A stretch of 64,000 nt of DNA from Pseudoxanthomonas suwonensis (GTDB lineage Bacteria; Pseudomonadota; Gammaproteobacteria; Xanthomonadales; Xanthomonadaceae): assembly GCF_010093235.1 (NCBI RefSeq), contig NZ_PDWP01000008.1:1-64000 (forward strand). Reading direction: 5' to 3'. Shown in pieces: positions 53,248-64,000 of the stretch. The first letter of the stretch is position 1. Each line of letters begins with the position of its first letter. The notes below the pieces were generated by a model that was not told the DNA's origin, searched no databases, and saw only the letters and a program-made list of their open reading frames with translations. Both the position numbers and the translations under genes were made by a program.

Positions 53248-53495
53248 ATGCACGGACCTGCGATCAAGGGACGCGGCGCGCGCGGCTACCTGCCGGGCCG
53301 GTTCGAGACCACCACCACCGAGGCGGTGGACGACGGCTGGGCGCCCCCGGAGGCCGACACCGAGTCCGGCCCGGACCCGCTGCGCCCGCGCACCCAGGTC
53401 CACGAGGAGACCGCGCGCAGCATCATCACCCGCAACAACTCGCCCGACGTCGGCTTCTCCCAGTCGGTCAATCCCTACCGCGGCTGCGAGCACGG
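53248..53495 (+). pseudogene. Radical SAM protein (PA0069 type), 5' fragment cut by insertion
   Basis: About 82 codons of a radical SAM family protein: [14 protein letters not shown] at the start, then [20 protein letters not shown] and PYRGCEHG. In intact members the next residues are CVYCFARP, which complete the CxxxCxxC iron-sulfur cluster motif. Here the reading is broken after GCEHG by foreign sequence that adds MSLP and a stop. Only the first Cys remains, so no active protein can be made. The rest of the gene should lie beyond the right end of the inserted element. Confidence 0.88.
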
Positions 53496-53540
53496 TATGT
53501 CACTGCCCTGACAACGTCCTCACACCTGCTAGGTGAATCA

Positions 53541-54842
53541 ATGACATACAAGCCGGCGGTGAACAATTATCGGACTGAGATGAACTACGACGTCGAGGTG
53601 CGCAGAAGTGCTCGGGGACGCCTAAGTGCCATGGCGGCGATCGTGTCGCCGGTTCACTTGCCGTCCGGCTTCTGCTTTCTGGTATCCCGCGCCAGTGGTC
53701 GGCCCGCACAGCCGGCCTTTGACTTCTTGACCAGTGCCTATCTGGCCGGGGCTCAAGTCAGAGAACTGATCTGCGCCGAGAACACCATCAAGGCGGTGGT
53801 CGACGATCTTTCGGACTTCCACCACTTCCTGGATGCCCATAGCCTTTGGGTCCACGACGTGGGCGAGGAGGCGTTGGAGCAGTACCTGCGCAGCATGACT
53901 ACCCTCAAGTCACCTGTGACCGGGCGACCCTACGAGCGGTCAACGGTCTTGAGGAGACGATCATCGGTCACGAGGTTTCTGCAGTTCTGCCAAGAAAGGG
54001 GTCTTCTCCGGCATCGGTTCAAAATCGAGAGCAGCCCCACGCCTAGCGGCATCGCACAGCGCTTCGCTCCGAATCTCCCTGGGCCTCGGGCAGATCCTAT
54101 CGACAAGCTGGTCCGTGCTATCGAACCCCCCCTGCTTCGGCCCCTACTCGACGAGCTGGGGCCAGCGCTGGTCAACTCGGTCGATGAGGATCTAGTCATC
54201 TCGCCGCAACCATCTGTCAGCAGACTCATGGCCGAGGTCTGTCTGAACACCGGTCTCCGACGTGCCGAGGCGTGCTCACTCCGAGTCGAGCAAGTAGTCA
54301 ACGTCCATTTGGAGGGGCGCGACCCTTTCACCTCCATTGCGATCTCAGTGCGAGGAAAGGGAAGAAAGCTCAGGCAGGTTCCATTCCCTGTCTGGCTGCT
54401 CACCGCCCTTCGCTTCTACGCACAGAACGTGCGAGCTCACATCGTCTCAACGGCCATCAAGCAGAACCGTCGGCTTGCTGATCATGGCTATCTGTTCGTG
54501 ATCGAAAAGGGCTGCCGCGGCGTGAAAGGTCGACCAATCACTCCAAAATACTTCAACAAGATCTTTGCAAGTGCACGCGAGCGGATGCTGGCCCGACTGA
54601 TGCGTGACGATCCCGAACTCCACAGGCTTGCGAAATCCATCCGAATCACCATCCACGCGCTACGTCATACATTCGCACTACTTACCTACATACAACGCAG
54701 AAACTTCGGTGACGCGTCTCCGGGCAAGTACGTGCAAGCTGTCCTTGGCCATTCATACCAAGAAACGACAGAGCGGATCTACCTGAGGAGCTCACACGTG
54801 TTCGAGTCCGAACTTTCAGAAGCGATGGAGCAACTCTTGTGA
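53541..54842 (+). CDS. tnpA: Tyrosine recombinase, first of trio (TnpA-like)
   Basis: 433-residue integrase. The catalytic set is complete: Arg240 in NTGLRRAEACSL, a Lys in the GKGRKLRQVPF hairpin, His372 and Arg375 in HALRHTFALL, His in VLGHSYQETT and nucleophile Tyr414 in RIYLR. An N-terminal SAM-like core-binding domain covers about 70-180. The ATG at 53541 follows AGGTG, 45 bp inside the element; the frame is open upstream through the target gene but is not conserved. It is followed 38 bp later by the second recombinase. Confidence 0.92.
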   Translation: MTYKPAVNNYRTEMNYDVEVRRSARGRLSAMAAIVSPVHLPSGFCFLVSRASGRPAQPAFDFLTSAYLAGAQVRELICAENTIKAVVDDLSDFHHFLDAHSLWVHDVGEEALEQYLRSMTTLKSPVTGRPYERSTVLRRRSSVTRFLQFCQERGLLRHRFKIESSPTPSGIAQRFAPNLPGPRADPIDKLVRAIEPPLLRPLLDELGPALVNSVDEDLVISPQPSVSRLMAEVCLNTGLRRAEACSLRVEQVVNVHLEGRDPFTSIAISVRGKGRKLRQVPFPVWLLTALRFYAQNVRAHIVSTAIKQNRRLADHGYLFVIEKGCRGVKGRPITPKYFNKIFASARERMLARLMRDDPELHRLAKSIRITIHALRHTFALLTYIQRRNFGDASPGKYVQAVLGHSYQETTERIYLRSSHVFESELSEAMEQLL

Positions 54843-54880
54843 CAACGAAAGGCTGAAGTTCCACGACAAGGCGACCAGAC

Positions 54881-56692
54881 ATGCCGCGAAAGGGCTCGGG
54901 AAAATCAAGGTTCTCAGACGATGCGAGGATGAACGGCGGGGAGGCGACTTCGCCCTGGACGCTTCTTGAGAACAATGGAAGGCTGGAGATTCACTTCCGC
55001 ACTGCAAACGATCACGTCCCTCACTGCCTGGGCCTGACGAATTGGACAAAGATCGGAGGAATCGCTCCGCTACTCGCCAATGCCTTCGCCTCACTACACG
55101 CTACGTCATCCAAGCAGACGCGTCGAACCGCTTCGAGATCGATTAGCGACTCCTTTGTGCCGTGGCTTGTCGACCAAAAACTGTCCTTCAGTGACAGGCT
55201 GGAGCTCCCGCGTGATCTTCTTACGCGCTACTTGTCATTTTTGAAAGAACGCACTAATGAGGACGGGACCCCGTACGCCAACTCCACCAGGATGCATTAC
55301 TGGAGGTACGTTGCAACTCTAATAGTAAAAGTGGCGTCCGGTCAGCCGACCGTCGAGATCGATGTCCCGTCGCGGCCATTCGCAGGAATGAACATGGCCC
55401 CGACAAGGACCAAGAGGCCAGACCGTGATGCCATAGCATCCACGCTTCTCTTCGCGGCAAATGCAGCAATCCAAACCATGGATGCGGTGGACTCGTTCTT
55501 GCCTGGGCTGCACAGCGCGATCGAACGACTCGACTCTGGCCTAAGCCCCAACTGGGAAAGTCTGGAAGACCTGGTCGCTCATCTAGTTGACGAGTACGAC
55601 GGGGTGCTCCCTCCGCGGAAAGAGCTAGTCAAGCTGCCTATCTGGTCCTCCATCGAAGCACATGGGTACACAAGAATTCGGCGACTGATCAACCCTGTCG
55701 CTAATGATCTGATGCCATTCTTCCTGCTGATGGCGGCGCACAGTGGATGGAACCAGCAGCCGCTCGCACATCTCCGGCTATCCAACTGTGTCCTGAGGTC
55801 CCTCCTGGGCACGGAGAGGCTGACCATTTCGGCGGAGAAGCTCCGTGCAGGCTCCATCGTGAGGCGCTCCTTCGCGCTCACGGGTACCCGGCTGTCGCCT
55901 CACGCGATCATTGAATTCATAACGCGATGGACATCAGTCCTCAGGGCTAATGCGCCCGATCCGGTGAGGGATGATCTTTGGCTTCACTACGTCGCAGCCG
56001 CAGGCAGGAACTCGTATAAGAGAATGCACGTCGACTCACTTGCGTTGAGGCTGAGATCTGCCGTTCTCAATCCGACAGCCTACGTTCTCCGATACTGTGA
56101 GGAAAACGGGCTGAAATTCACGGGACTTCAGGAGATGCGCCTCGCGTTCGCTGAGCGTGCAAGTGAAGTTACAGGCGGGGACATGTTGGCCCTTCGGGTC
56201 CTACTCGGCCATAAGGACGTGTCGACCACTAACACTCACTACAGAACAGCGGAAATGCAGCGCCGAGATGCGGAGGCCCTGGCGGGAGTTCAAGCCGCCA
56301 GAGAGCGCTGGATCACGAGTGATGGCAAGGTGGACCATAGACGTGCAAACTCCGAGCGAGCGGCGGCGACCCCTGGGTTCACGTGCCTGGATCCATTCGA
56401 TAGCCCTCTCTTCGGCCAGCGCAAGGGCCGGATGTGCGACGCCTACGGACGCTGCCCTACATGCCCGTTGGCAGCTTCCGATCCGGACATTGGCTATGCA
56501 CTCGCACGCTTCCACCAGCTAAAGGCGGCATTCGAGGCGGCGCGTACCACGTTGGGAGCCGCGGCGTGGAAGATTAAGTTTGCGAAGGAATCGGAAGAGC
56601 TGTCGCATAGGTGGATCCCGCGAGCCTCCTCTGCCGAAGCGTTGGAGCGCGCGCGCCAGCTATTGCTTCCGCCACTGCCCGAGATTGAATGA
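54881..56692 (+). CDS. tnpB: Tyrosine recombinase-like protein with altered active site, second of trio (TnpB-like)
   Basis: 603 residues. The C-terminal catalytic-domain fold is recognisable, but box I reads SGWNQQPLAHL with Asn291 where the first catalytic Arg should be. In box II QEMRLAF the usual His is Gln, while Arg420 is kept. His444 in LLGHKDVSTT and Tyr454 in THYR are present. A cysteine cluster near residues 500-535 (CLDPF, MCDAYGRCPTCPL) looks like a zinc-binding finger. It ends one base before the next gene begins. Confidence 0.85.
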   Translation: MPRKGSGKSRFSDDARMNGGEATSPWTLLENNGRLEIHFRTANDHVPHCLGLTNWTKIGGIAPLLANAFASLHATSSKQTRRTASRSISDSFVPWLVDQKLSFSDRLELPRDLLTRYLSFLKERTNEDGTPYANSTRMHYWRYVATLIVKVASGQPTVEIDVPSRPFAGMNMAPTRTKRPDRDAIASTLLFAANAAIQTMDAVDSFLPGLHSAIERLDSGLSPNWESLEDLVAHLVDEYDGVLPPRKELVKLPIWSSIEAHGYTRIRRLINPVANDLMPFFLLMAAHSGWNQQPLAHLRLSNCVLRSLLGTERLTISAEKLRAGSIVRRSFALTGTRLSPHAIIEFITRWTSVLRANAPDPVRDDLWLHYVAAAGRNSYKRMHVDSLALRLRSAVLNPTAYVLRYCEENGLKFTGLQEMRLAFAERASEVTGGDMLALRVLLGHKDVSTTNTHYRTAEMQRRDAEALAGVQAARERWITSDGKVDHRRANSERAAATPGFTCLDPFDSPLFGQRKGRMCDAYGRCPTCPLAASDPDIGYALARFHQLKAAFEAARTTLGAAAWKIKFAKESEELSHRWIPRASSAEALERARQLLLPPLPEIE

Positions 56693-56693
56693 C

Positions 56694-58724
56694 ATGGCCA
56701 TCAAGAAGCAGATACAGCCCGTTCTAGAAGGGCTGCTTTGGGTTGTGGACCAGCCAACTCCGGGCCAGAAGTGGACCTCCGTCGAGCTTGATTGGAATGT
56801 CACCCTCAGCAAGGATGAGCGGCTGGGCGACGTGAGGCATCGCAGACTGCTAGAGGAGCTGCAGGCGTTCCTGCGCCTCGCGCTCACAAAGCCGACTTCA
56901 GCGGTTCGCGTCAAGCCAGGATCGCTCTACTCGACGTTCAGCGGACTGGTAGAGCTAGCCCGTTTCATGAGGAATCGAAACCTTACTTCGATAAGCCAGG
57001 TTACCTCGCAGGAAAGTTGGGAGTTCGTCGAGTTCTTCCGATCTCAATACAAGGCAGGGAGCGCAGACGTAGGGCGGCCCCGTGGCGTGACTTTCGCATC
57101 AGCGTTGAAGGTGTTGCATTGCTTGACGCAGATCCACGCTATTCGAATTCCTCTCCGCGACGCAGGTTTTGCGACACTTCCCGAAGCTCCCTATAGCGGG
57201 ATGAGTACCTTTGCAGTAGTGACGAACTACTTGAAGTTCGAGAGGCCAAAACCACACAAGCCGATCCCGGACCACATCGCTGTCCCCACCTTGAGTCGCG
57301 CTGCTTCGTGGGTTCTTGAAGGTGGAGCTGATGTCGTCGAGATACAGCGCCTCGTGCTCGAGCTAATGCGGGATAGCGGTCTCAACAAGAGAGCTGCGCG
57401 TAGCCGGATCACCAAGATGATCACGGCCTACACGTTCAAGAAGGACGTGCGCACCGGGCACCCGTGGATGGAGCAGATTCGTGCGCGTAATCGACTGACT
57501 CCTGACGGAGGAAGGTGGCGTCTGACGCCTTTCCAGAGCACGCGGCGTCTCATTCTCGACATGGTTGCCGCTTGTATTACGCTGATACAAGGCGCCACTG
57601 GAATGCGCGCGCATGAGCTGATCGGTCTAAGAGCTGTGCGACGAGAAGACGGGTCATTGCAATGCGTCGAGAGTGAGCTATCAGCCGACGGCCTGATGGA
57701 GGTTTTCTACCTCCGCGGAATTACTGCAAAGCGCCAAGCGGAGACACATCGGTGGACGGCTGGTCTACGTCCAACTGGCGTAGATGAGTTGCCATTACCG
57801 GTGGTGGCCGTGAACGTTCTGGCGGATCTACTAGATCCGTGGCGAACGCTCGCCGGTGACGATCACCTGCTCCTGACCTTCAGGACCCGGAAGTCATTTC
57901 CCGGACGCCGTAACGCCGTGGGGCGGTTCGTTAGCGACACGCTGACCCGAGTTCAACGCGAGTTTGCGCTCGATGCGTTGCTAGAAGCCGGCTATGGGGA
58001 AGAAGAAGCAGTTGCGATGTCCATGGAGATTCGTGGGCAGCGCTGGAGGACGACGTTCGCGCATGCTGTGTTTAGGACGAGTCCGGCGCTCATTTCCGCG
58101 CTTCGAGATCACTTTAGACATATAAGCGAGCTCGTGACTGATCAAGGCTACATAGGAAGCGATGCTTCATTGCTTGATGATCTCGAAAGCGAGCGGATCC
58201 AGTCGACCGCAAGGACCTTTCTCCAGATGGCGACGGGAAAGCGACTAGGTGCCGGCACTGTGCAGCGACTCATCACGCGCCACAAAGAACAACTGATGGC
58301 TGAGATATCCGAGATGCCTGGTGACGGCGATCTTGCTCGAGCCATTGCCTACGTCATGGTCAACGACGTTCGAATCTGGACGGGACGGTATGCAAGCTGT
58401 CTGATTAATCTCTTGCCGAATGCCTCACGTTGCAACAAATACGCTTCGTTGTCCCCTGGATTTGCTACGCCAGACTACGCGAACAGATCTCCAAGCGTAT
58501 GCGCGAGTTGCAACTGCTGCATCATCCTTCCCGAGCACCGAGAGTTCTGGACTGATCGTCTGGCCACGAACCTGCGGATTGTTGAGGCCGAGGAAGAAGA
58601 TGGCCTACACAGGACATCGCGGTCGATCGCAGCGAAGCGCGTGGCCCAGAGTCGCGCGATCCTCAGAGCTATCGACTCGCTCCACGAGCCTACGGGCGAC
58701 GTGCCTTCTGGCGCTTCTTCCTGA
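56694..58724 (+). CDS. Tyrosine recombinase-like protein, third of trio
   Basis: 676 residues. Box I has Arg305 in GATGMRAHELIGL. Box II is GQRWRTTFAH, with Gln in place of the common His but the Arg kept. HFRHISELVTDQGYIG supplies the late His and the likely nucleophile Tyr486. A C-terminal cysteine-rich segment (SVCASCNCC, with an upstream Cys in RCNKY) suggests zinc binding. Its ATG follows the previous stop by one base. The last 35 bp overlap the opposite-strand gene 58690-59115. Confidence 0.85.
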   Translation: MAIKKQIQPVLEGLLWVVDQPTPGQKWTSVELDWNVTLSKDERLGDVRHRRLLEELQAFLRLALTKPTSAVRVKPGSLYSTFSGLVELARFMRNRNLTSISQVTSQESWEFVEFFRSQYKAGSADVGRPRGVTFASALKVLHCLTQIHAIRIPLRDAGFATLPEAPYSGMSTFAVVTNYLKFERPKPHKPIPDHIAVPTLSRAASWVLEGGADVVEIQRLVLELMRDSGLNKRAARSRITKMITAYTFKKDVRTGHPWMEQIRARNRLTPDGGRWRLTPFQSTRRLILDMVAACITLIQGATGMRAHELIGLRAVRREDGSLQCVESELSADGLMEVFYLRGITAKRQAETHRWTAGLRPTGVDELPLPVVAVNVLADLLDPWRTLAGDDHLLLTFRTRKSFPGRRNAVGRFVSDTLTRVQREFALDALLEAGYGEEEAVAMSMEIRGQRWRTTFAHAVFRTSPALISALRDHFRHISELVTDQGYIGSDASLLDDLESERIQSTARTFLQMATGKRLGAGTVQRLITRHKEQLMAEISEMPGDGDLARAIAYVMVNDVRIWTGRYASCLINLLPNASRCNKYASLSPGFATPDYANRSPSVCASCNCCIILPEHREFWTDRLATNLRIVEAEEEDGLHRTSRSIAAKRVAQSRAILRAIDSLHEPTGDVPSGASS

Positions 58725-59115
58725 AGTCGACTACGTTTGGCGAACCGCCATTGTCGCTGCCGCCAAGCCGCTGATTCTCCAATAGCAACTCAGCGATGTA
58801 GGTATCCTTCATTTCGAGCTGCTCTTGCAGATCGCGGATCTCTGCTCGGAGTGCTGCTAAGAGCTTGCTAGTGGGAGTGCCTCGAGTCTCGGCGGATGCA
58901 GCCTCAAGAACTTCTCGTCGTAGATGAGGATAGGGGCATCCATCGTGCCCGATCAGCGTCCTGCTTACCGAAGCTTCCAACGCGACGGTGGATACATTGA
59001 TCAGCTTTCGGCCCGCTTCGGCACGCGCCTTGAGGGCAGGGTGGATTGGCTGACGAGCGCGTAGCCGCCCGATTGCACCGCGAACTTTTCGTTCTATATC
59101 GACATCGCATCTCAT
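58690..59115 (-). CDS. Small coiled-coil accessory protein (TnpC/DUF6262-like)
   Basis: 141 residues on the strand opposite to the recombinases. An HTH-like segment (KLINVSTVALEASVSRTLIG) is followed by a coiled coil (LRAEIRDLQEQLEMKDTYIA, ELLLENQRL) and a basic tail. This resembles TnpC of Tn554-type elements, an accessory factor for orientation and frequency of transposition. In Tn554 tnpC is on the same strand, whereas here it converges on and overlaps the third recombinase by 35 bp. Confidence 0.65.
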   Translation of the reverse strand: MRCDVDIERKVRGAIGRLRARQPIHPALKARAEAGRKLINVSTVALEASVSRTLIGHDGCPYPHLRREVLEAASAETRGTPTSKLLAALRAEIRDLQEQLEMKDTYIAELLLENQRLGGSDNGGSPNVVDFRKKRQKARRP

Positions 59116-59203: not shown

Positions 59204-59632
59204 TCATTGGGTGCCTGAGTTCTGCGGGTCGGGAGGCTCGCCGAGTCTTTTGCAGATAAGTCGACGCGCGTGTTCGGCGCCGCCTCCGCCCGAATCGACG
59301 TGCTGTTCCCTGGCCGTCTGGGGCGCATATGTCTCCAAGAACATCGCAGCGTGGAAACGGTACTTTAGGGCCTCGCTTGGGAGCGCCACGCCACACTGTG
59401 CCGCCACTAACTTAGCGTAGTTCAGTTGAGCTTCGGTGGGCTCTTTGAGGTCCCAGTCCAGGCAATCCTTGAGCAATGACTCAACTTGGTGTTCCAGGCG
59501 CCGGACGAAAGTGTCCCGTACTCGCCGATCTTTGATCCGCTCGTACTGAATCGACAGGGCTTCTTCCAAACGCAGAGAGACATGCAACTCGAGTGTCATC
59601 TCAACAGCGGGGTTAACGAGGTACAAAGGCAT
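59204..59632 (-). CDS. Hypothetical protein in mobile element
   Basis: 142 residues, family not recognised. An N-terminal helical part (LELHVSLRLEEALSIQYERI) is followed by EPTEAQLNYAKLVAAQCGVALPSEAL. This recalls short helical domains (PTxxQLxxA) seen in several DNA-associated proteins. The C-terminus is Gly-rich then basic. It is divergent from the HTH gene at 59748 across a 115-bp region with a perfect palindrome. Confidence 0.6.
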   Translation of the reverse strand: MPLYLVNPAVEMTLELHVSLRLEEALSIQYERIKDRRVRDTFVRRLEHQVESLLKDCLDWDLKEPTEAQLNYAKLVAAQCGVALPSEALKYRFHAAMFLETYAPQTAREQHVDSGGGGAEHARRLICKRLGEPPDPQNSGTQ

Positions 59633-59681
59633 GCGTTACCTTCATCCGCGAGTAGGCCCAAGCAGAGGCCCACCCCGATGC

Positions 59682-59698
59682 TACATGAATTTCATGTA
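59682..59698. promoter_or_regulatory. Palindromic operator TACATGAA-T-TTCATGTA
   Basis: Perfect 8-bp arms around a central T, about 50 bp upstream of the HTH gene and 50 bp upstream of the divergent gene at 59632. It is the likely binding site for the HTH protein encoded next to it. Confidence 0.7.
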
Positions 59699-59747
59699 AT
59701 CGGTAGTCGTGCCATAGCTTCCCCGGTCGCCCTTCATCAGTGCGACC

Positions 59748-60005
59748 ATGTCAGGCAAGACCATCTATTCCGTCGCGTACCGGCAACTGGTTCAGCAGCT
59801 ACGTGTCAAGCGCGAGGAAGCGGGCCTCACCCAGACAGCGTTAGCCGCGGCCTTGGGATGGCCACAGCAGCGCCTGTCCGCGGTTGAGGCGGGCGCGCGC
59901 AGACTCGACGTTGTCGAGTTTCTGGAGCTGACGACACAGCTGGGCATGTCGCCAAGCAAGGCCGTGCAGATGGTGGCCAACCTGGTTGAGCCCCAGAAGT
60001 CCTGA
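59748..60005 (+). CDS. XRE-family HTH regulator
   Basis: 85 residues: LRVKREEAGLTQTALAAALGWPQQRLSAVEAGARRLDV is a clear HTH_3 domain, with a short C-terminal helix. Small regulators of this type often control mobile-element genes or act as antitoxins. No HipA- or RelE-like partner follows. Confidence 0.88.
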   Translation: MSGKTIYSVAYRQLVQQLRVKREEAGLTQTALAAALGWPQQRLSAVEAGARRLDVVEFLELTTQLGMSPSKAVQMVANLVEPQKS

Positions 60006-60073
60006 GCATTCGCCAGGCGCTAGAGGCGGTCGATAGAGGCAGCCGGGGGGCGAACCTGATTTGGAGCATGCCG

Positions 60074-60364
60074 TTAGACACCCCGATGGCGCGGCCGCCT
60101 AGACAGCGCGGCAGCGACTTCTCGCCTGATCCGCGACTCGTGCCGGGCGGCCCAAATCTCGCAGCCGTGCCGTCCGCATTCCATACTCCGGCAGTCCCGC
60201 ATCACAAGTGGGGCTTCGATGGGCCAATGGCACCAGAGGCGGGCCATCCAGGTCCCATTGACTCGTTCCTCGACGTAAGCCACCAGTACGCCCTGCAAGA
60301 ACAAGCCGTTGGAAAACTTGGCGTGCTCCCAGCGGGGAGCCCGTTTTAAGCCGTCGGGAAGCAT
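60074..60364 (-). CDS. Hypothetical small protein
   Basis: 96 residues from the ATG at 60364 (a GTG at 60394 is possible). Trp-rich centre GTWMARLWCHWPIEAPLVMR and two Cys (DCRSMECGRHGCEIW has three). No family recognised. Similar short Trp/Cys proteins occur in proteobacterial islands. Divergent from the SRAP gene by 63 bp. Confidence 0.5.
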   Translation of the reverse strand: MLPDGLKRAPRWEHAKFSNGLFLQGVLVAYVEERVNGTWMARLWCHWPIEAPLVMRDCRSMECGRHGCEIWAARHESRIRREVAAALSRRPRHRGV

Positions 60365-60427
60365 GGGCTGGCATTCTCCCCAATGCGGTCTCACGGTTTG
60401 TGACGGGCCGGGTGTACGCTCAGCCTC

Positions 60428-61348
60428 ATGTGCTACTCCGCCCAGATCTACGCTGAGTTCAAGCGGTTCCAGCGAGAGTTCGGAGCCGTGATGGACTTGG
60501 AGACCTACGTGGCCACCTTCTGGCCCGGGGAGAAAAAGTGGCCCCGCGCGAAGGCGCCGAGGGCGATGCTCCGAGAGCTGGAGGAGATGGGACCGCCGGA
60601 GCTGCGGGAGGCGCTAGTTGCCCAGGACAAAGCCGACATTGCGGCGCTCGAGGCCGAGCTGTTTGACCTTCGCCGGCGCGTTGCGGATGCCCAGCGGTCG
60701 CTGCAGGTGAAGGAGACGAAGAAAGCCCTTGAGGACGTGCGCATTGGCACGAGCAAGGGTAAGGCGGCGCGACGACGGCTGGACATCCTGAAAGGCTTGT
60801 CCAGCGACGACGACCGGATCTTCCCAGGGATGTACGCGCCAGTGATGGTCTGGGAGGACGGTCAACGCGTGGTGAAGCCTATGCGCTACCAGTGCCGACC
60901 CGCGGACAAGCCGCCCTTGTACGACCGGAAGTTCCCCGGCACCTATAACGCCAGGCGAGACAACTTGGAAGGCTTCTGGCGCGACCTGTTTGGTGTCTCC
61001 CACGGGGTCATGGTGGCTAACCGCTTCTACGAGAATGTTGAGGGACCGGACGGGAGGAACCGGGTTCTTGAGTTCAGCCCGCGAGACGGGGGGCCGATGC
61101 TGGTGGCCTGCCTGTGGGCACGTTGGGTTGACGCGAAGGGGGAAGAACCTGAGCTGCTCAGCTTCGCGGCCATCACCGACGAACCCGAGCCAGAGGTAGC
61201 CGCCGTGGGCCATGACCGCACGATCATCAATCTCAAGCCCGAGCACCTGGACGGGTGGCTGGACCCGGATCCCGGCAACCTGGCGGCGCTGTATGCCATT
61301 TTGGACGACAAGCGGCATCCCTACTATGAGCATCGGGAGGTGGCATGA
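60428..61348 (+). CDS. SRAP (SOS response-associated peptidase, HMCES/YedK-like) protein with helical insertion
   Basis: 306 residues. The SRAP family covalently traps abasic sites in single-stranded DNA through Cys2. All four family catalytic residues can be placed: Cys2 (MCYSA, after Met removal), Asn164 in TYNARRD, Glu192 in RFYENV and His242 in GHDRTIINL. Normal members have about 220 residues. The extra ~80 form a charged helical insertion (about 45-120, LEEMGPPELREALVAQDKAD onwards) between the N-terminal strand and the core. The stop overlaps the next small gene. Confidence 0.85.
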   Translation: MCYSAQIYAEFKRFQREFGAVMDLETYVATFWPGEKKWPRAKAPRAMLRELEEMGPPELREALVAQDKADIAALEAELFDLRRRVADAQRSLQVKETKKALEDVRIGTSKGKAARRRLDILKGLSSDDDRIFPGMYAPVMVWEDGQRVVKPMRYQCRPADKPPLYDRKFPGTYNARRDNLEGFWRDLFGVSHGVMVANRFYENVEGPDGRNRVLEFSPRDGGPMLVACLWARWVDAKGEEPELLSFAAITDEPEPEVAAVGHDRTIINLKPEHLDGWLDPDPGNLAALYAILDDKRHPYYEHREVA

Positions 61349-61593
61349 AGACCAGGAGGCGATCGATATCCTGGTACGGCTGGAATCTAGATTGTGCGAA
61401 TTGGACGTGGCGTGCTGGATGGGAGAGCTCTTGGAGGCTTTGCCACGGAGGTGGAGCGTCTCATAGAGGACGTGTCCGCTGGACAGCTAGACCACGTACT
61501 ACAAGAATCAACGGCATGCTCTCAGCGGCCCGGGTCATCTCAGGAGACAATCAGGGCGAGGATGACGCAGACGACTTGGGCATGTTCCACTAA
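61326..61593 (+). pseudogene. Small gene broken by two frameshifts, upstream of the antitoxin gene
   Basis: Protein-like sequence runs through three frames. MSIGRWHEDQEAIDILVRLE to GELLEAL is read from ATG 61326, then ATEVERLIEDVSAGQLDHVL in the -1 frame from about 61433. RINGMLSAARVISGDNQGED to GMFH is then read in the -1 frame again, ending at TAA 61591-61593. Joined, it would be a ~90-residue acidic helical protein. Two lost bases (mutation or sequencing error) explain the pattern. The start overlaps the SRAP gene and the stop overlaps the antitoxin ribosome site, which suggests a three-gene operon. Confidence 0.45.
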
Positions 61594-61602
61594 GGAGGAC
61601 AC

Positions 61603-62070
61603 GTGGCTCATGATCGTGTAGCCAAGAGGAAGTTCTCTGAATTTCGAAACAGACTGCGCGGGGCTTGTCTTCTCGAACGCGTGCAGATCGAGCGGGATGG
61701 CGTACCAGCGGACGTCGTAGAAGGTCTGATCGCCCAGACGGCGCTCAGCACCTCAGTCTTCCGGTCCATCACCCGGATCCCGAAAGCCACCTACACCAAG
61801 GTGCTCCAGCAGCAGCAGCCCTTCCAAGGCGCAGTGGGCCATTCCATCGTTGGATTCATCGACCTCATCAACCTGGTTGAGGAGATGGTTCGCAGGGATC
61901 CGACTTGGGACGCAAAGGAATTCGATGCCGCAAAGTGGATCGCGAGTTGGATTCAACATCCTGTCTCAGCGCTGTGCGGGATGCGTCCTTATGAGCTTAT
62001 GGACACACCTACGGGGAGAGAGATGGTCATGAGGGTTCTTCGCGCTGCCCAAGAGGGCGTCTATCTCTGA
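61603..62070 (+). CDS. Xre/MbcA/ParS-type antitoxin (DUF2384 C-terminus)
   Basis: 155 residues from GTG 61603, preceded by a perfect AAGGAGG. The N-terminal helical DNA-binding region (~40-90, LSTSVFRSITRIPKATYTKV) is followed by the toxin-binding domain: AAKWIASWIQHPVSALCGMRP, then YELMDTPTGREMVMRVL and the end QEGVYL. This matches MbcA/ParS antitoxins, which neutralise RES-domain NAD-consuming toxins. No RES toxin gene follows; the next 366 bp are empty. Confidence 0.78.
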   Translation: MAHDRVAKRKFSEFRNRLRGACLLERVQIERDGVPADVVEGLIAQTALSTSVFRSITRIPKATYTKVLQQQQPFQGAVGHSIVGFIDLINLVEEMVRRDPTWDAKEFDAAKWIASWIQHPVSALCGMRPYELMDTPTGREMVMRVLRAAQEGVYL

Positions 62071-62437
62071 GACAGCGCACTCGGGAACTCAGGTGGTTGA
62101 GCGGGCATTTGCCAGAGCTGGATTGATGCGTTCCCCCGTCAGGTGGGAGTTTGAGTGAAATTAGCCTGTTTATCCAAAATCACTCAAATTCGTTCATCTG
62201 TTCAGGTAACAGCGGCCTAACTTCTAAGCCCTTTTCTGCGAGCGAAGCCGTAAGAATGCTTCGGCATCCGTGCACTTGTTGGTGAAACTGCGCCGCGAGG
62301 CCCCCTTGTGCCAAAAGACAGGGACGCCTTTGAGCCACGTAGATGCACACCTGTTTCGCATATTCCTTGGAATCCAGGTATCCGTCAGAGCCGCTTCAAG
62401 GCTAACAATTCAAATTCCACGTTGGGGGGCGGCACTC
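62071..62437. other. 366-bp AT-richer spacer with inverted repeat
   Basis: No gene is supported between the antitoxin and the HAD gene. The region has weak open frames only. An inverted repeat lies at 62150-62188, and the base composition is the lowest in GC of the window. Confidence 0.5.
62150..62188. repeat. Inverted repeat TTTGAGTGA / TCACTCAAA
   Basis: Perfect 9-bp arms at 62150-62158 and 62180-62188 with a 21-bp AT-rich loop. It could be an operator, a recombination site or a weak terminator for the antitoxin gene. There is no T tract after it. Confidence 0.55.
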
Positions 62438-63019
62438 GTGAAGGCCATAATTTTCGATGCGTTTGGGACACTGGTGCGATTCGGAAGCAGACGCTCTCCG
62501 TATCGCCGCCTTATGAAGTGCTTAGCAGAGATGGGACGGAGCCCGCAGGCGGCTGACGCCGCGAACGTCATGTCCTCACCGCTCGACCTCGCTGGGGCAG
62601 CGGCCTTCTTTGGAATCCCCATACGCGAGCAACTCTTGGACGAGCTGCAATCAGATCTTAAGCACGAGCTGGATTCGATCGCAGTCTATGAGGATGCCCG
62701 GGCGACGGTTCGATCAGCCAAGGAGCGAGGATGGAAGGTAGGTATCTGCTCCAACCTCGCTCTGCCGTACGGCGAGCGACTCAAATGTTTGCTACCGGAG
62801 ATGGACGCATACTCGCTGAGCTATGCCGTTGGGGCGATCAAGCCAGACCCGAGGATCTACCTCCACGCCTTGGACTCGCTGGGATGCTCAGCAGACGAGA
62901 CCTTCTTCGTTGGAGATACGTTTGATGCGGACTACGTCGGCCCGACGAGCATCGGCATGCGTGCATGGCACCTTCAGCGCGCACAAGGCGACACGCTCTT
63001 AGGATTGGTGCGAGGATAG
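62438..63019 (+). CDS. HAD family hydrolase
   Basis: 193 residues from GTG 62438, preceded by GGGGGG. HAD motif I is KAIIFDAFGTLVRF with the nucleophile Asp, motif II GICSNL (Ser/Asn), motif III Lys in AIKPDP and motif IV VGDTFDADYVGP. The FDAFGTL form is that of the haloacid dehalogenase/phosphoglycolate phosphatase subgroup. The substrate is unknown. An open frame upstream to 62270 lacks conservation. Confidence 0.85.
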   Translation: MKAIIFDAFGTLVRFGSRRSPYRRLMKCLAEMGRSPQAADAANVMSSPLDLAGAAAFFGIPIREQLLDELQSDLKHELDSIAVYEDARATVRSAKERGWKVGICSNLALPYGERLKCLLPEMDAYSLSYAVGAIKPDPRIYLHALDSLGCSADETFFVGDTFDADYVGPTSIGMRAWHLQRAQGDTLLGLVRG

Positions 63020-63045
63020 CGAGCCCCTCAGGGCCGCAACGTGGA

Positions 63046-63264
63046 TTACGCGGCGAGCACCGCTAGAAGCACTGTGGTTAAGGCGACGACACTCCTACAC
63101 AGGAAGTTCAGTTCCCTTCGTATGCTGGCGACGGGGCGACCATCGTGCTGTTGGATGTAAACGACGTCGCCCCACGCCCACCGAGCCAAGCGTCGCCGCC
63201 AACTTCGGAGTGTTGCCGCATCAATTGCCCTGGTTGCCCGGACCCGGATATGTGGATCCACCAC
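63046..63264 (-). CDS. Small hypothetical protein with C-terminal membrane helix
   Basis: 72 residues. A basic N-terminal part (IDAATLRSWRRRLARWAWGD) is followed by a hydrophobic C-terminal helix (SVVALTTVLLAVLAA). It overlaps the HTH gene upstream by 44 bp in another frame, so cotranscription is likely. No family recognised. Confidence 0.4.
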   Translation of the reverse strand: MVDPHIRVRATRAIDAATLRSWRRRLARWAWGDVVYIQQHDGRPVASIRRELNFLCRSVVALTTVLLAVLAA

Positions 63265-63589
63265 GTACGATCTCTTGAATCGCGGATAGAAGTCTCTCTA
63301 CTGGCGCCTCACGTCCGGGCAGTTGCGCCAACAAGTGTTCCAGTAGTGCTCGAGTCCGGTCTGCGGCTCCCGCCTCCACAACGGGATTAATTTGCAAAAA
63401 TTTGCAAATACGTAGCACGTTCGGAGACAGAGTGGCCATCCGTCCGCGCTCAAATCGAGAGAGCTGCCCAGCATCAACTTTGGTCGCCGCAGCCAGGTGT
63501 TTCAACGTAAACCCCTGGCGCTTCCGAGCAACGCGCATCCTCGCACCGAGGAGCGCTGCATCTTCTGGCGAGTTGAAGCGATCGGCCAT
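63221..63589 (-). CDS. HTH-type transcriptional regulator
   Basis: 122 residues. XRE-type HTH: MRVARKRQGFTLKHLAAATK, then VDAGQLSRFERGRMATLSPN, and a C-terminal helical tail. The start codon directly abuts a palindromic AT-rich operator, and the same ATTTGCA motif occurs twice inside the gene (63389-63411). Divergent from the DUF4031 gene. Confidence 0.83.
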   Translation of the reverse strand: MADRFNSPEDAALLGARMRVARKRQGFTLKHLAAATKVDAGQLSRFERGRMATLSPNVLRICKFLQINPVVEAGAADRTRALLEHLLAQLPGREAPVERLLSAIQEIVRGGSTYPGPGNQGN

Positions 63590-63610
63590 ATATGCTAAAT
63601 ATTTGCATAT
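63590..63610. promoter_or_regulatory. Palindromic operator between HTH and DUF4031 genes
   Basis: ATATGCTAAAT then ATTTGCATAT form a dyad with a single-base bulge, immediately upstream of the HTH start codon and 21 bp upstream of the DUF4031 ATG. It probably binds the HTH protein and would then control both divergent genes. Confidence 0.6.
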
Positions 63611-63630
63611 TCAAAGCCCTTGCGCTAGCC

Positions 63631-63894
63631 ATGGCCGTCTACGTAGATTCAGAAGCAATTCGCTGGAGAGGGCGTGAGTGGTGCCACATCGTGGCCGATT
63701 CGCTAGACGAGCTTCACGAGTTTGCGGCGCGCCTCGGCCTTCAGCGCCGCTGGTTCCAGAATCGCGGGCGATATCCGCACTATGACGTGACAATGGCTGT
63801 CCGCATGCGGGCTTTACGCTTGGGTGCCATTGATGCCGATCGCGCGACCGTGATCGCCTGTTGCAAGCGCAATCGCCTCGCAGAGCAGAGCTGA
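63631..63894 (+). CDS. DUF4031 domain-containing protein
   Basis: 87 residues, the full length of the DUF4031 family: AVYVDSEAIRWRGREWCHIV, ADSLDELHEFAARLGLQRRW, then FQNRGRYPHYDVT and RMRALRLGAI. Function unknown; members occur on phages and islands. The ATG at 63631 starts the conserved region; an upstream ATG at 63592 lies within the operator. The partial gene that follows may be cotranscribed. Confidence 0.85.
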   Translation: MAVYVDSEAIRWRGREWCHIVADSLDELHEFAARLGLQRRWFQNRGRYPHYDVTMAVRMRALRLGAIDADRATVIACCKRNRLAEQS

Positions 63895-63926
63895 GCTCAA
63901 GCCACCAGGTCAAACGAGGATCGTGC

Positions 63927-64000
63927 ATGACGCCTGCACTTCCGCAGCCCCAGCCGCTCTCGATTGCAGAGTACCTACTCAAGGCGCGCCGGACCAACAG
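63927..64000 (+). CDS. Partial CDS at window edge
   Basis: First 24 codons of a gene on the same strand as DUF4031: MTPALPQPQPLSIAEYLLKA then RRTN. Too short to identify. The ATG is 32 bp after the DUF4031 stop and is preceded by AACGAGGA. Confidence 0.45.
   Translation, partial: MTPALPQPQPLSIAEYLLKARRTN

Follow-up and report, generated by a model that had tools for sequence, protein, structure and literature searches.

A probable strand-biased circularizing integrative element at one base of a PA0069-family radical SAM gene in Pseudoxanthomonas suwonensis

Positions 1 to 64,000 of contig NZ_PDWP01000008.1 of Pseudoxanthomonas suwonensis (hereafter, the window; the contig has 123,700 bases) contain the left part of a 15.7-kb mobile element that very probably belongs to a recently described class, the strand-biased circularizing integrative elements (SEs). 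The element begins at position 53,496, where the G+C content drops (from about 0.70 to about 0.58 at about 53.5 kb), and opens with a block of four genes. Three of them lie on the plus strand: intA (53541..54842) encodes a tyrosine recombinase of 433 aa, tfp (54881..56692) a recombinase-fold protein of 603 aa without the catalytic Arg-I, and intB (56694..58724) a large tyrosine recombinase of 676 aa from its ATG. The fourth gene, a srap homologue encoding 141 aa, is inverted (58690..59115, minus strand). The mechanical list of open reading frames sets the start of intA further upstream than the 433-aa version does, and an upstream TTG start would extend IntB to 714 aa. A single base (56693) separates tfp from intB, and intB and srap overlap tail to tail by 35 bp (58690-58724), so the coordinates confirm the four-gene layout described in a first-pass annotation made from the sequence alone.

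All four genes were assigned by profile comparison, with motif alignment added for the three large proteins and fold comparison for Tfp. Only IntA matched a Pfam family (Phage_integrase, 6.8e-16); Tfp, IntB, and the small protein matched none at an E-value of 0.01. In the motif alignment, IntA has the full R-H-R-H-Y set (R240, H372, R375, H404, Y414), and IntB keeps Arg, Lys, Arg, His, and Tyr (R305, R452, H476, Y486). The Arg-I column of Tfp is occupied by Asn in 14 of the 15 aligned rows, including the SE of pAQU1, and by Ser in a relative on a Methylomonas plasmid (L058); His-II is absent from all 15 rows, that of pAQU1 included, and a C-terminal cluster of four cysteines is kept in all 15 (C502, C519, C525, and C528 in the window). 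Hence, of the three recombinases claimed in the first-pass annotation, the second, Tfp, is catalytically degenerate. By the motif alignment, Tfp has the expected trait of a recombinase fold without the catalytic set; the fold match is weak, the AlphaFold model having a pLDDT of 58.6 and its five best PDB matches, all tyrosine recombinases, having E-values of 0.046-0.5. The model of the small protein (pLDDT 80.4) predicts an N-terminal helical bundle followed by a long helix (residues 82-118), and a fold search of the PDB with it gave no significant match.

The open reading frame upstream of the recombinases (53248..53495, plus strand) is the 5' part of a radical SAM gene, and its family match stops after ...NPYRGCEHG, where the element begins. 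The 3' remainder of the same gene resumes at contig position 69,173 with C-S-Y-C-F-A-R-P and scores 403 bits against NCBIfam NF033668 (PA0069-family; cut-off 360). The insertion cut inside the Cys-rich motif of this gene, and the position of the remainder means that the element spans 53,496 to about 69,166, its right end lying 5.2 kb past the window. The start given in the first-pass annotation, 53496, coincides with the first base of the element, immediately past the host 6-mer GCACGG; its end, 59115, falls short, since the element runs on to about 69166.

Empty sites are available in the genus. The left flank was matched in all 17 genus genomes at E ≤0.001, some matches being short and off-target; in the 16 genomes other than that of the window, all 14 orthologous loci are uninterrupted, and two genomes outside these 14 (G227 and G272) gave short matches only. 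A search of the window strain's own genome with an uninterrupted radical SAM relative returned two fragments and no intact copy. The window part of the element is present there in a single copy, the second DNA match being confined to a gene for a SRAP peptidase. No replacement copy of the radical SAM gene was seen in the window element, and the gene is therefore probably inactivated in this strain.

At the same motif (noted at L020:11327-12439), the intein-containing relatives of this radical SAM family in NCBIfam (NF038136) take up their alignment again at residue 97, some three residues away from where the SEs insert. Both inteins and SEs may be drawn to this Cys motif.

Comparison with 395 genomes of the family revealed 11 that match an intB query at E ≤0.001, eight of them strongly (the window's own genome and seven others, E 3e-78 or better) and three weakly. 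All seven other strong loci carry intA, tfp, intB, and the small gene as a block, so the arrangement is not due to chance. The srap gene is inverted in six of the eight strong loci, the window included, and overlaps intB by 11 or 20 bp in the five inverted relatives; it is co-directional in the other two (L018 and L023). The weak matches comprise a full block (L072), an intA-intB pair (L071), and a partial locus (L070). At the last of these, in genome G029, an intA match of 181 aa adjoins an intB match of 472 aa, both short, and the pair looks like a decayed copy. Among 45 plasmid records that matched intB, the four inspected all have the block in one direction, and two Sphingomonas loci also carry the four genes. 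The refuting condition of the first-pass annotation, homologues that never occur as a set, therefore fails: the set is present in the seven strong loci, the four inspected plasmids, L068, L072, and six named loci found with a closer 6-row alignment; L069-L071 are partial only. A class-wide sample contained just four matching genomes of 369 with a 12-row profile (the window's own, G029 of the same family, and G408 and G431 of other families), so these elements are uncommon at that profile sensitivity. A scan of the genome contig collection with the single IntB protein gave no match.

Seven of the eight strong loci are inserted at the same base of the radical SAM gene, after GA-[6 bp]. These are the elements of the window (15.7 kb), X. 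pisi (32.5 kb), X. nasturtii (31.7 kb), P. japonensis, Pseudoxanthomonas sp. PXM03, and, judged by its genus code, a third Pseudoxanthomonas, G284 (27.4, 26.4, and 27.9 kb for these three), and G232 (about 43 kb). A 17-taxon tree built from the concatenated sequences of all four proteins groups the seven as one clade with support 100, and srap is inverted in six of them. The eighth strong locus, L023, lies elsewhere in the tree, and its genome has an uninterrupted radical SAM gene. Five of the seven elements carry an uninterrupted frame of the target gene, with 372-377 codons between stops; two of these frames (L019 and L022) show no early ATG and would need another start codon. The frame lies directly beyond the inverted srap in four elements and about 2.4 kb further in X. 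pisi. Four of the copies, from elements in two genera, share 84-96% identity with one another, compared with 61-68% identity of all five to the host genes, which indicates that the replacement copy travels with the element. Like the window element, that of G232 has no replacement copy that we could find.

SEs are bounded by imperfect inverted repeats, C and C', of 13-19 bp. The left end of the window element, motif C (53496..53519, plus strand), begins with TATG and looks like an imperfect inverted repeat of the right end: with TATG aligned by eye, and without a statistic, 8 of its first 10 bases equal the right-end complement, and the match is weaker beyond. The ends of the relatives, also compared by eye, are of the TATGG...TGTTCA type with a poorly matching middle. 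TGAAC/GTTCA words cluster in the left 250 bases of six of the seven elements (shuffle fraction <0.01; 0.085 in PXM03) and in the right 250 bases of none.

The 6-mers beside the two ends differ. On the left, GCACGG (53490..53495 in the window) is host-like and has the same bases as several empty sites; it occurs in six of the seven elements and ACATGG in one, both being spellings of the host gene. On the right, TTGCTG (three elements), ATGCTG (three), and GTGCTG (G232, by eye) together give NTGCTG in 7/7, which does not fit the host site. The rule published for SEs has the 6 bp beside C come from attB and the 6 bp beside C' from the previous, donor site; if it holds here, the right 6-mers of the seven elements would stem from their previous sites. 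At two other sites, in traU (L058) and on a Sphingobium plasmid (L057 compared with the empty L122), the layout is similar, C and C' being asymmetric by 2 nt as judged by eye. The latter again combines a host-like left 6-mer with a foreign right one, GGAAAA (by eye), which argues against TGCTG being a fixed end in the family at large. The right end of L023 was not found within 40 kb, so its tag is unusable.

To place the family, we compared its profiles with those of five SE-type loci from plasmids, one being SE-6945 of pSEA1 (Tfp WP_176703888.1, cited in PMC10214605); SE-6945 and the pAQU1 SE are named as SEs, and the other three were chosen by similarity and layout. Like matched like: 99.3% for intA (342 columns), 97.1% for tfp (452), 99.3% for intB (579), and 88.8% for srap (105), with off-diagonal values of at most 2.3% except intA against intB (88%). 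Against the pAQU1 SE alone, the diagonal values are 96, 74, 94, and 67%, and those off the diagonal are under 2%. Some intermediate loci bridge the two sides: L068 matches both through intA and intB, and L069 through intB. The order intA-tfp-intB-srap with the Arg-less gene second, the position of the block at the motif-C end, and the specificity for one base in seven genomes point the same way. We therefore regard the element as very probably an SE of a Xanthomonadaceae clade that uses one target base in the PA0069-family radical SAM gene. The SE group is already described (PMC10214605, PMC9345347), so the distinct subfamily suggested by the first-pass annotation exists as a group but is not new, and an inverted small gene is known from SE-XcaCN17.

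Several observations weigh against this assignment. Against SE-6945 alone, IntA (97%) and IntB (98%) match, and Tfp (0.5%) and Srap (5.5%) do not; as single queries, the Tfp and Srap of the window itself score 17% and 0.5% with the SE profile, so the tie of these two proteins to SEs rests on profiles. With the window intB at E 0.001, the known plasmid SEs were not among the matches listed. IntB of the window has Q449 at the box-II position, a column filled by His in 15 of 17 aligned rows (by Arg in L072), and among the motif C sequences compared, that of the window looks the furthest diverged. The placement of L018 within the clade is weak (support 60), and the inverted-srap elements are not resolved as a single clade. 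Finally, the Gin proteins of the sister group discussed below were compared by text only.

Three other identities were considered. Tn554 has its att554 target in radC. A Tn554-family transposon with an extra gene would share with the window element an ordinary and a large tyrosine recombinase, a small coiled-coil protein, and a 6-bp footprint (features as given in PMC10214605), and the content the first-pass annotation likened to Tn554, plus one extra large recombinase-like protein in a site-specific mobile element, is indeed what the locus holds; this identity is nevertheless very improbable, because the additional, conserved 603-aa tfp occurs in 8/8 strong loci and, by the description in PMC10214605 that sets the two apart, has no counterpart in Tn554, and because the target is a radical SAM gene. 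Closer is GInt, the group of genomic islands with three integrases, sister to the SEs and built on a four-gene core of like kind: ginABCD encodes three integrases and a small protein, all needed for recombination, and the third, GinC, lacks the first Arg (PMC5385486). The number and kinds of genes, the small coiled-coil fourth gene, the site specificity, and the cargo agree with GInt, which is reported there from several bacterial groups, as relatives of our element occur in Alpha- and Betaproteobacteria. We consider a GInt unlikely, however: the Arg-less protein is second here and third in GInt (the Arg pattern, taken from the published description of ginABCD, sets the two apart), the SE panel that contains SE-6945 gives long diagonal profile matches, and the closest published case, SE-XcaCN17, is filed as an SE in the description available. 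Within the preferred SE reading, the window copy might also be a former SE that is now immobile. Gln449 and the divergent motif C suggest that this copy may be inactive, and the lack of a replacement gene fits such a relic, but the copy has four intact open reading frames, its two ends, and the footprint, and we find a degenerate state somewhat doubtful.

The meaning of the right-end NTGCTG is less settled. The Methylomonas relative (L058) occupies the traU 3' end and is flanked left and right by CTGCTG, traU being uninterrupted in three related plasmids (L097-L099). Among ten traU ends (excluding the first-listed L103 end, read in the wrong orientation), six read NTGCTG: GAC-TGC-TG in pUP202 and pFW12EY, GAA-TGC-TG in an X. 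perforans plasmid, GAT-TGC-TG in an IncC plasmid, and AAC-TGC-TG in two Lysobacteraceae genomes. The other four (two Methylomonas plasmids, pAQU1, and pLLO) read NTGTTG. Read in the traU phase, the element ends give C-MVFW*, C-MVLY*, C-WTFY*, C-MSLP*, and C-LF* (L058), and resemble the natural traU tail CFTFW* of X. perforans. Since the NTGCTG tag fits some traU 3' ends and the Methylomonas relative sits at one, we tentatively propose a two-site life cycle, in which the clade would shuttle between conjugative plasmids, with the traU 3' end as its site, and the chromosome, with the radical SAM gene as its site. The traU end would be a harmless travelling site, since the left end of the element would complete the gene with its final Cys, a few further codons, and a stop, leaving traU intact; the tag beside C' would record the last stop. 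The pAQU1 SE lies beyond traN.

We hold this proposal with reservation, its probability being lowered by the TGT at the first Cys codon in four of the ten traU ends. TGCTG is a common string, the seven elements are not independent, and traU was matched in only 3 of the 395 family genomes, with both of the two 3' ends read being uninterrupted and none occupied in the family. A plausible competitor is that NTGCTG is a fixed functional end, or that strand choice is reversed relative to the Vibrio SEs, and that it keeps no record of a previous site. TGCTG is kept in 7/7 elements, five of them closely related; Xanthomonadaceae yielded no copy inserted in traU; and the first base at the ten traU ends read is never the G of the G232 tag, being C, A, or T in the six with NTGCTG. 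Contrary to a fixed end, the relative at the Sphingobium site has GGAAAA, the variable base falls at the wobble position before Cys-Cys, and L058 sits at a traU end with CTGCTG.

The anatomy, the ends, the split target, the empty sites, and the host-like left and foreign right footprint are features of the DNA itself; for the transposition route, published work on SEs offers a model. By this analogy, IntA and IntB would join the ends by single-strand exchange, assisted by Tfp and Srap in a DNA-binding or architectural role. Joining of attL and attR on one strand, followed by replication, would give a circle without emptying the donor site, and the circle would then insert so that its 6-bp spacer comes to lie next to C'. 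Inserted at a single base and with clearly distinct host-like and foreign 6-mers, the seven elements offer naturally occurring material for testing the strand-exchange rule. Provided that the tag at the right end is a true record of the previous site, insertion histories could be read from the genome, and plasmid traU ends would be predicted as the vehicle for spread. On this branch, four-gene blocks also occur in Alpha- and Betaproteobacteria, namely in Sphingobium, Sphingomonas, Ancylobacter, and Variovorax (L057, L059, L060, L077, L078), whereas the PSI-BLAST survey in PMC10214605, as described there, had no Tfp or Srap homologues outside the Gammaproteobacteria. The main text of that paper makes no mention of a radical SAM target, and the target of SE-XcaCN17 may stand in its supplements. 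Among the literature titles and abstract openings listed, mostly from outside subscription journals, none describes this target or a traU target.

Beyond srap, cargo genes fill the window from 59204 to 64000 and continue to about 69166. They comprise an uncharacterized gene (59204-59632, minus strand), a helix-turn-helix (HTH) gene (59748-60005, plus), a SRAP peptidase of HMCES/YedK type (60428-61348, plus), a Xre/MbcA-like antitoxin (61603-62070, plus), a HAD hydrolase (62270-63019, plus), and a second HTH gene (63221-63589, minus). The SRAP-peptidase gene, distinct from the srap of the element, matches a stretch of contig C63 at 71% DNA identity. The copy-out model of SEs involves repair of DNA-protein crosslinks (PMC10214605). 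The right-end region beyond the window (contig 66634-68660; L003:18635-19270 and L004:3266-4660) holds a gene for a papain-like protease. In the same region lies a CapP/CapH-like pair of a peptidase and an HTH protein (PADLOC capP 5e-16, capH 5e-12). CapP and CapH are known from CBASS loci.

Among known systems, recombinase in trio (RIT) elements likewise have three adjacent tyrosine recombinases, but consist of RitA, RitB, and RitC only by the description in PMC10214605, whereas the window has a degenerate second protein and srap. Gamma-Mobile-Trio, raised as a candidate by a weak GmtY match (E 0.083), was dropped without comparison of its sequences. SE-6945 of Vibrio alfacsensis (pSEA1/pSEA2), for which PMC9345347 reports experimental evidence of strand-biased circularization, shares the four-gene order and, as published, the footprint and target specificity; unlike the window element, it has a co-directional srap, another target, and blaGMA-1 as cargo, and the intA BLAST pairs listed have about 22-25% local identity. 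SE-6283 (Tn6283) targets bcp and carries a bcp copy (PMC9345347), thus breaking a conserved gene and bringing a replacement as five relatives here do; by its description the gene differs, and the window element has no replacement. A srap knockout of SE-6283 was complemented in trans, whereas intA and intB knockouts were not (PMC10214605), which suggests that the inversion of srap probably alters only its transcription. The nearest case is SE-XcaCN17 of X. campestris (NZ_CP017307), an SE whose srap is reversed relative to intA-tfp-intB and whose host genus is that of the X. pisi and X. nasturtii relatives. Known to us by description, it is called the only example in PMC10214605, in contrast to the six of eight strong loci found here, and it likely shares the target and the clade of the window element.

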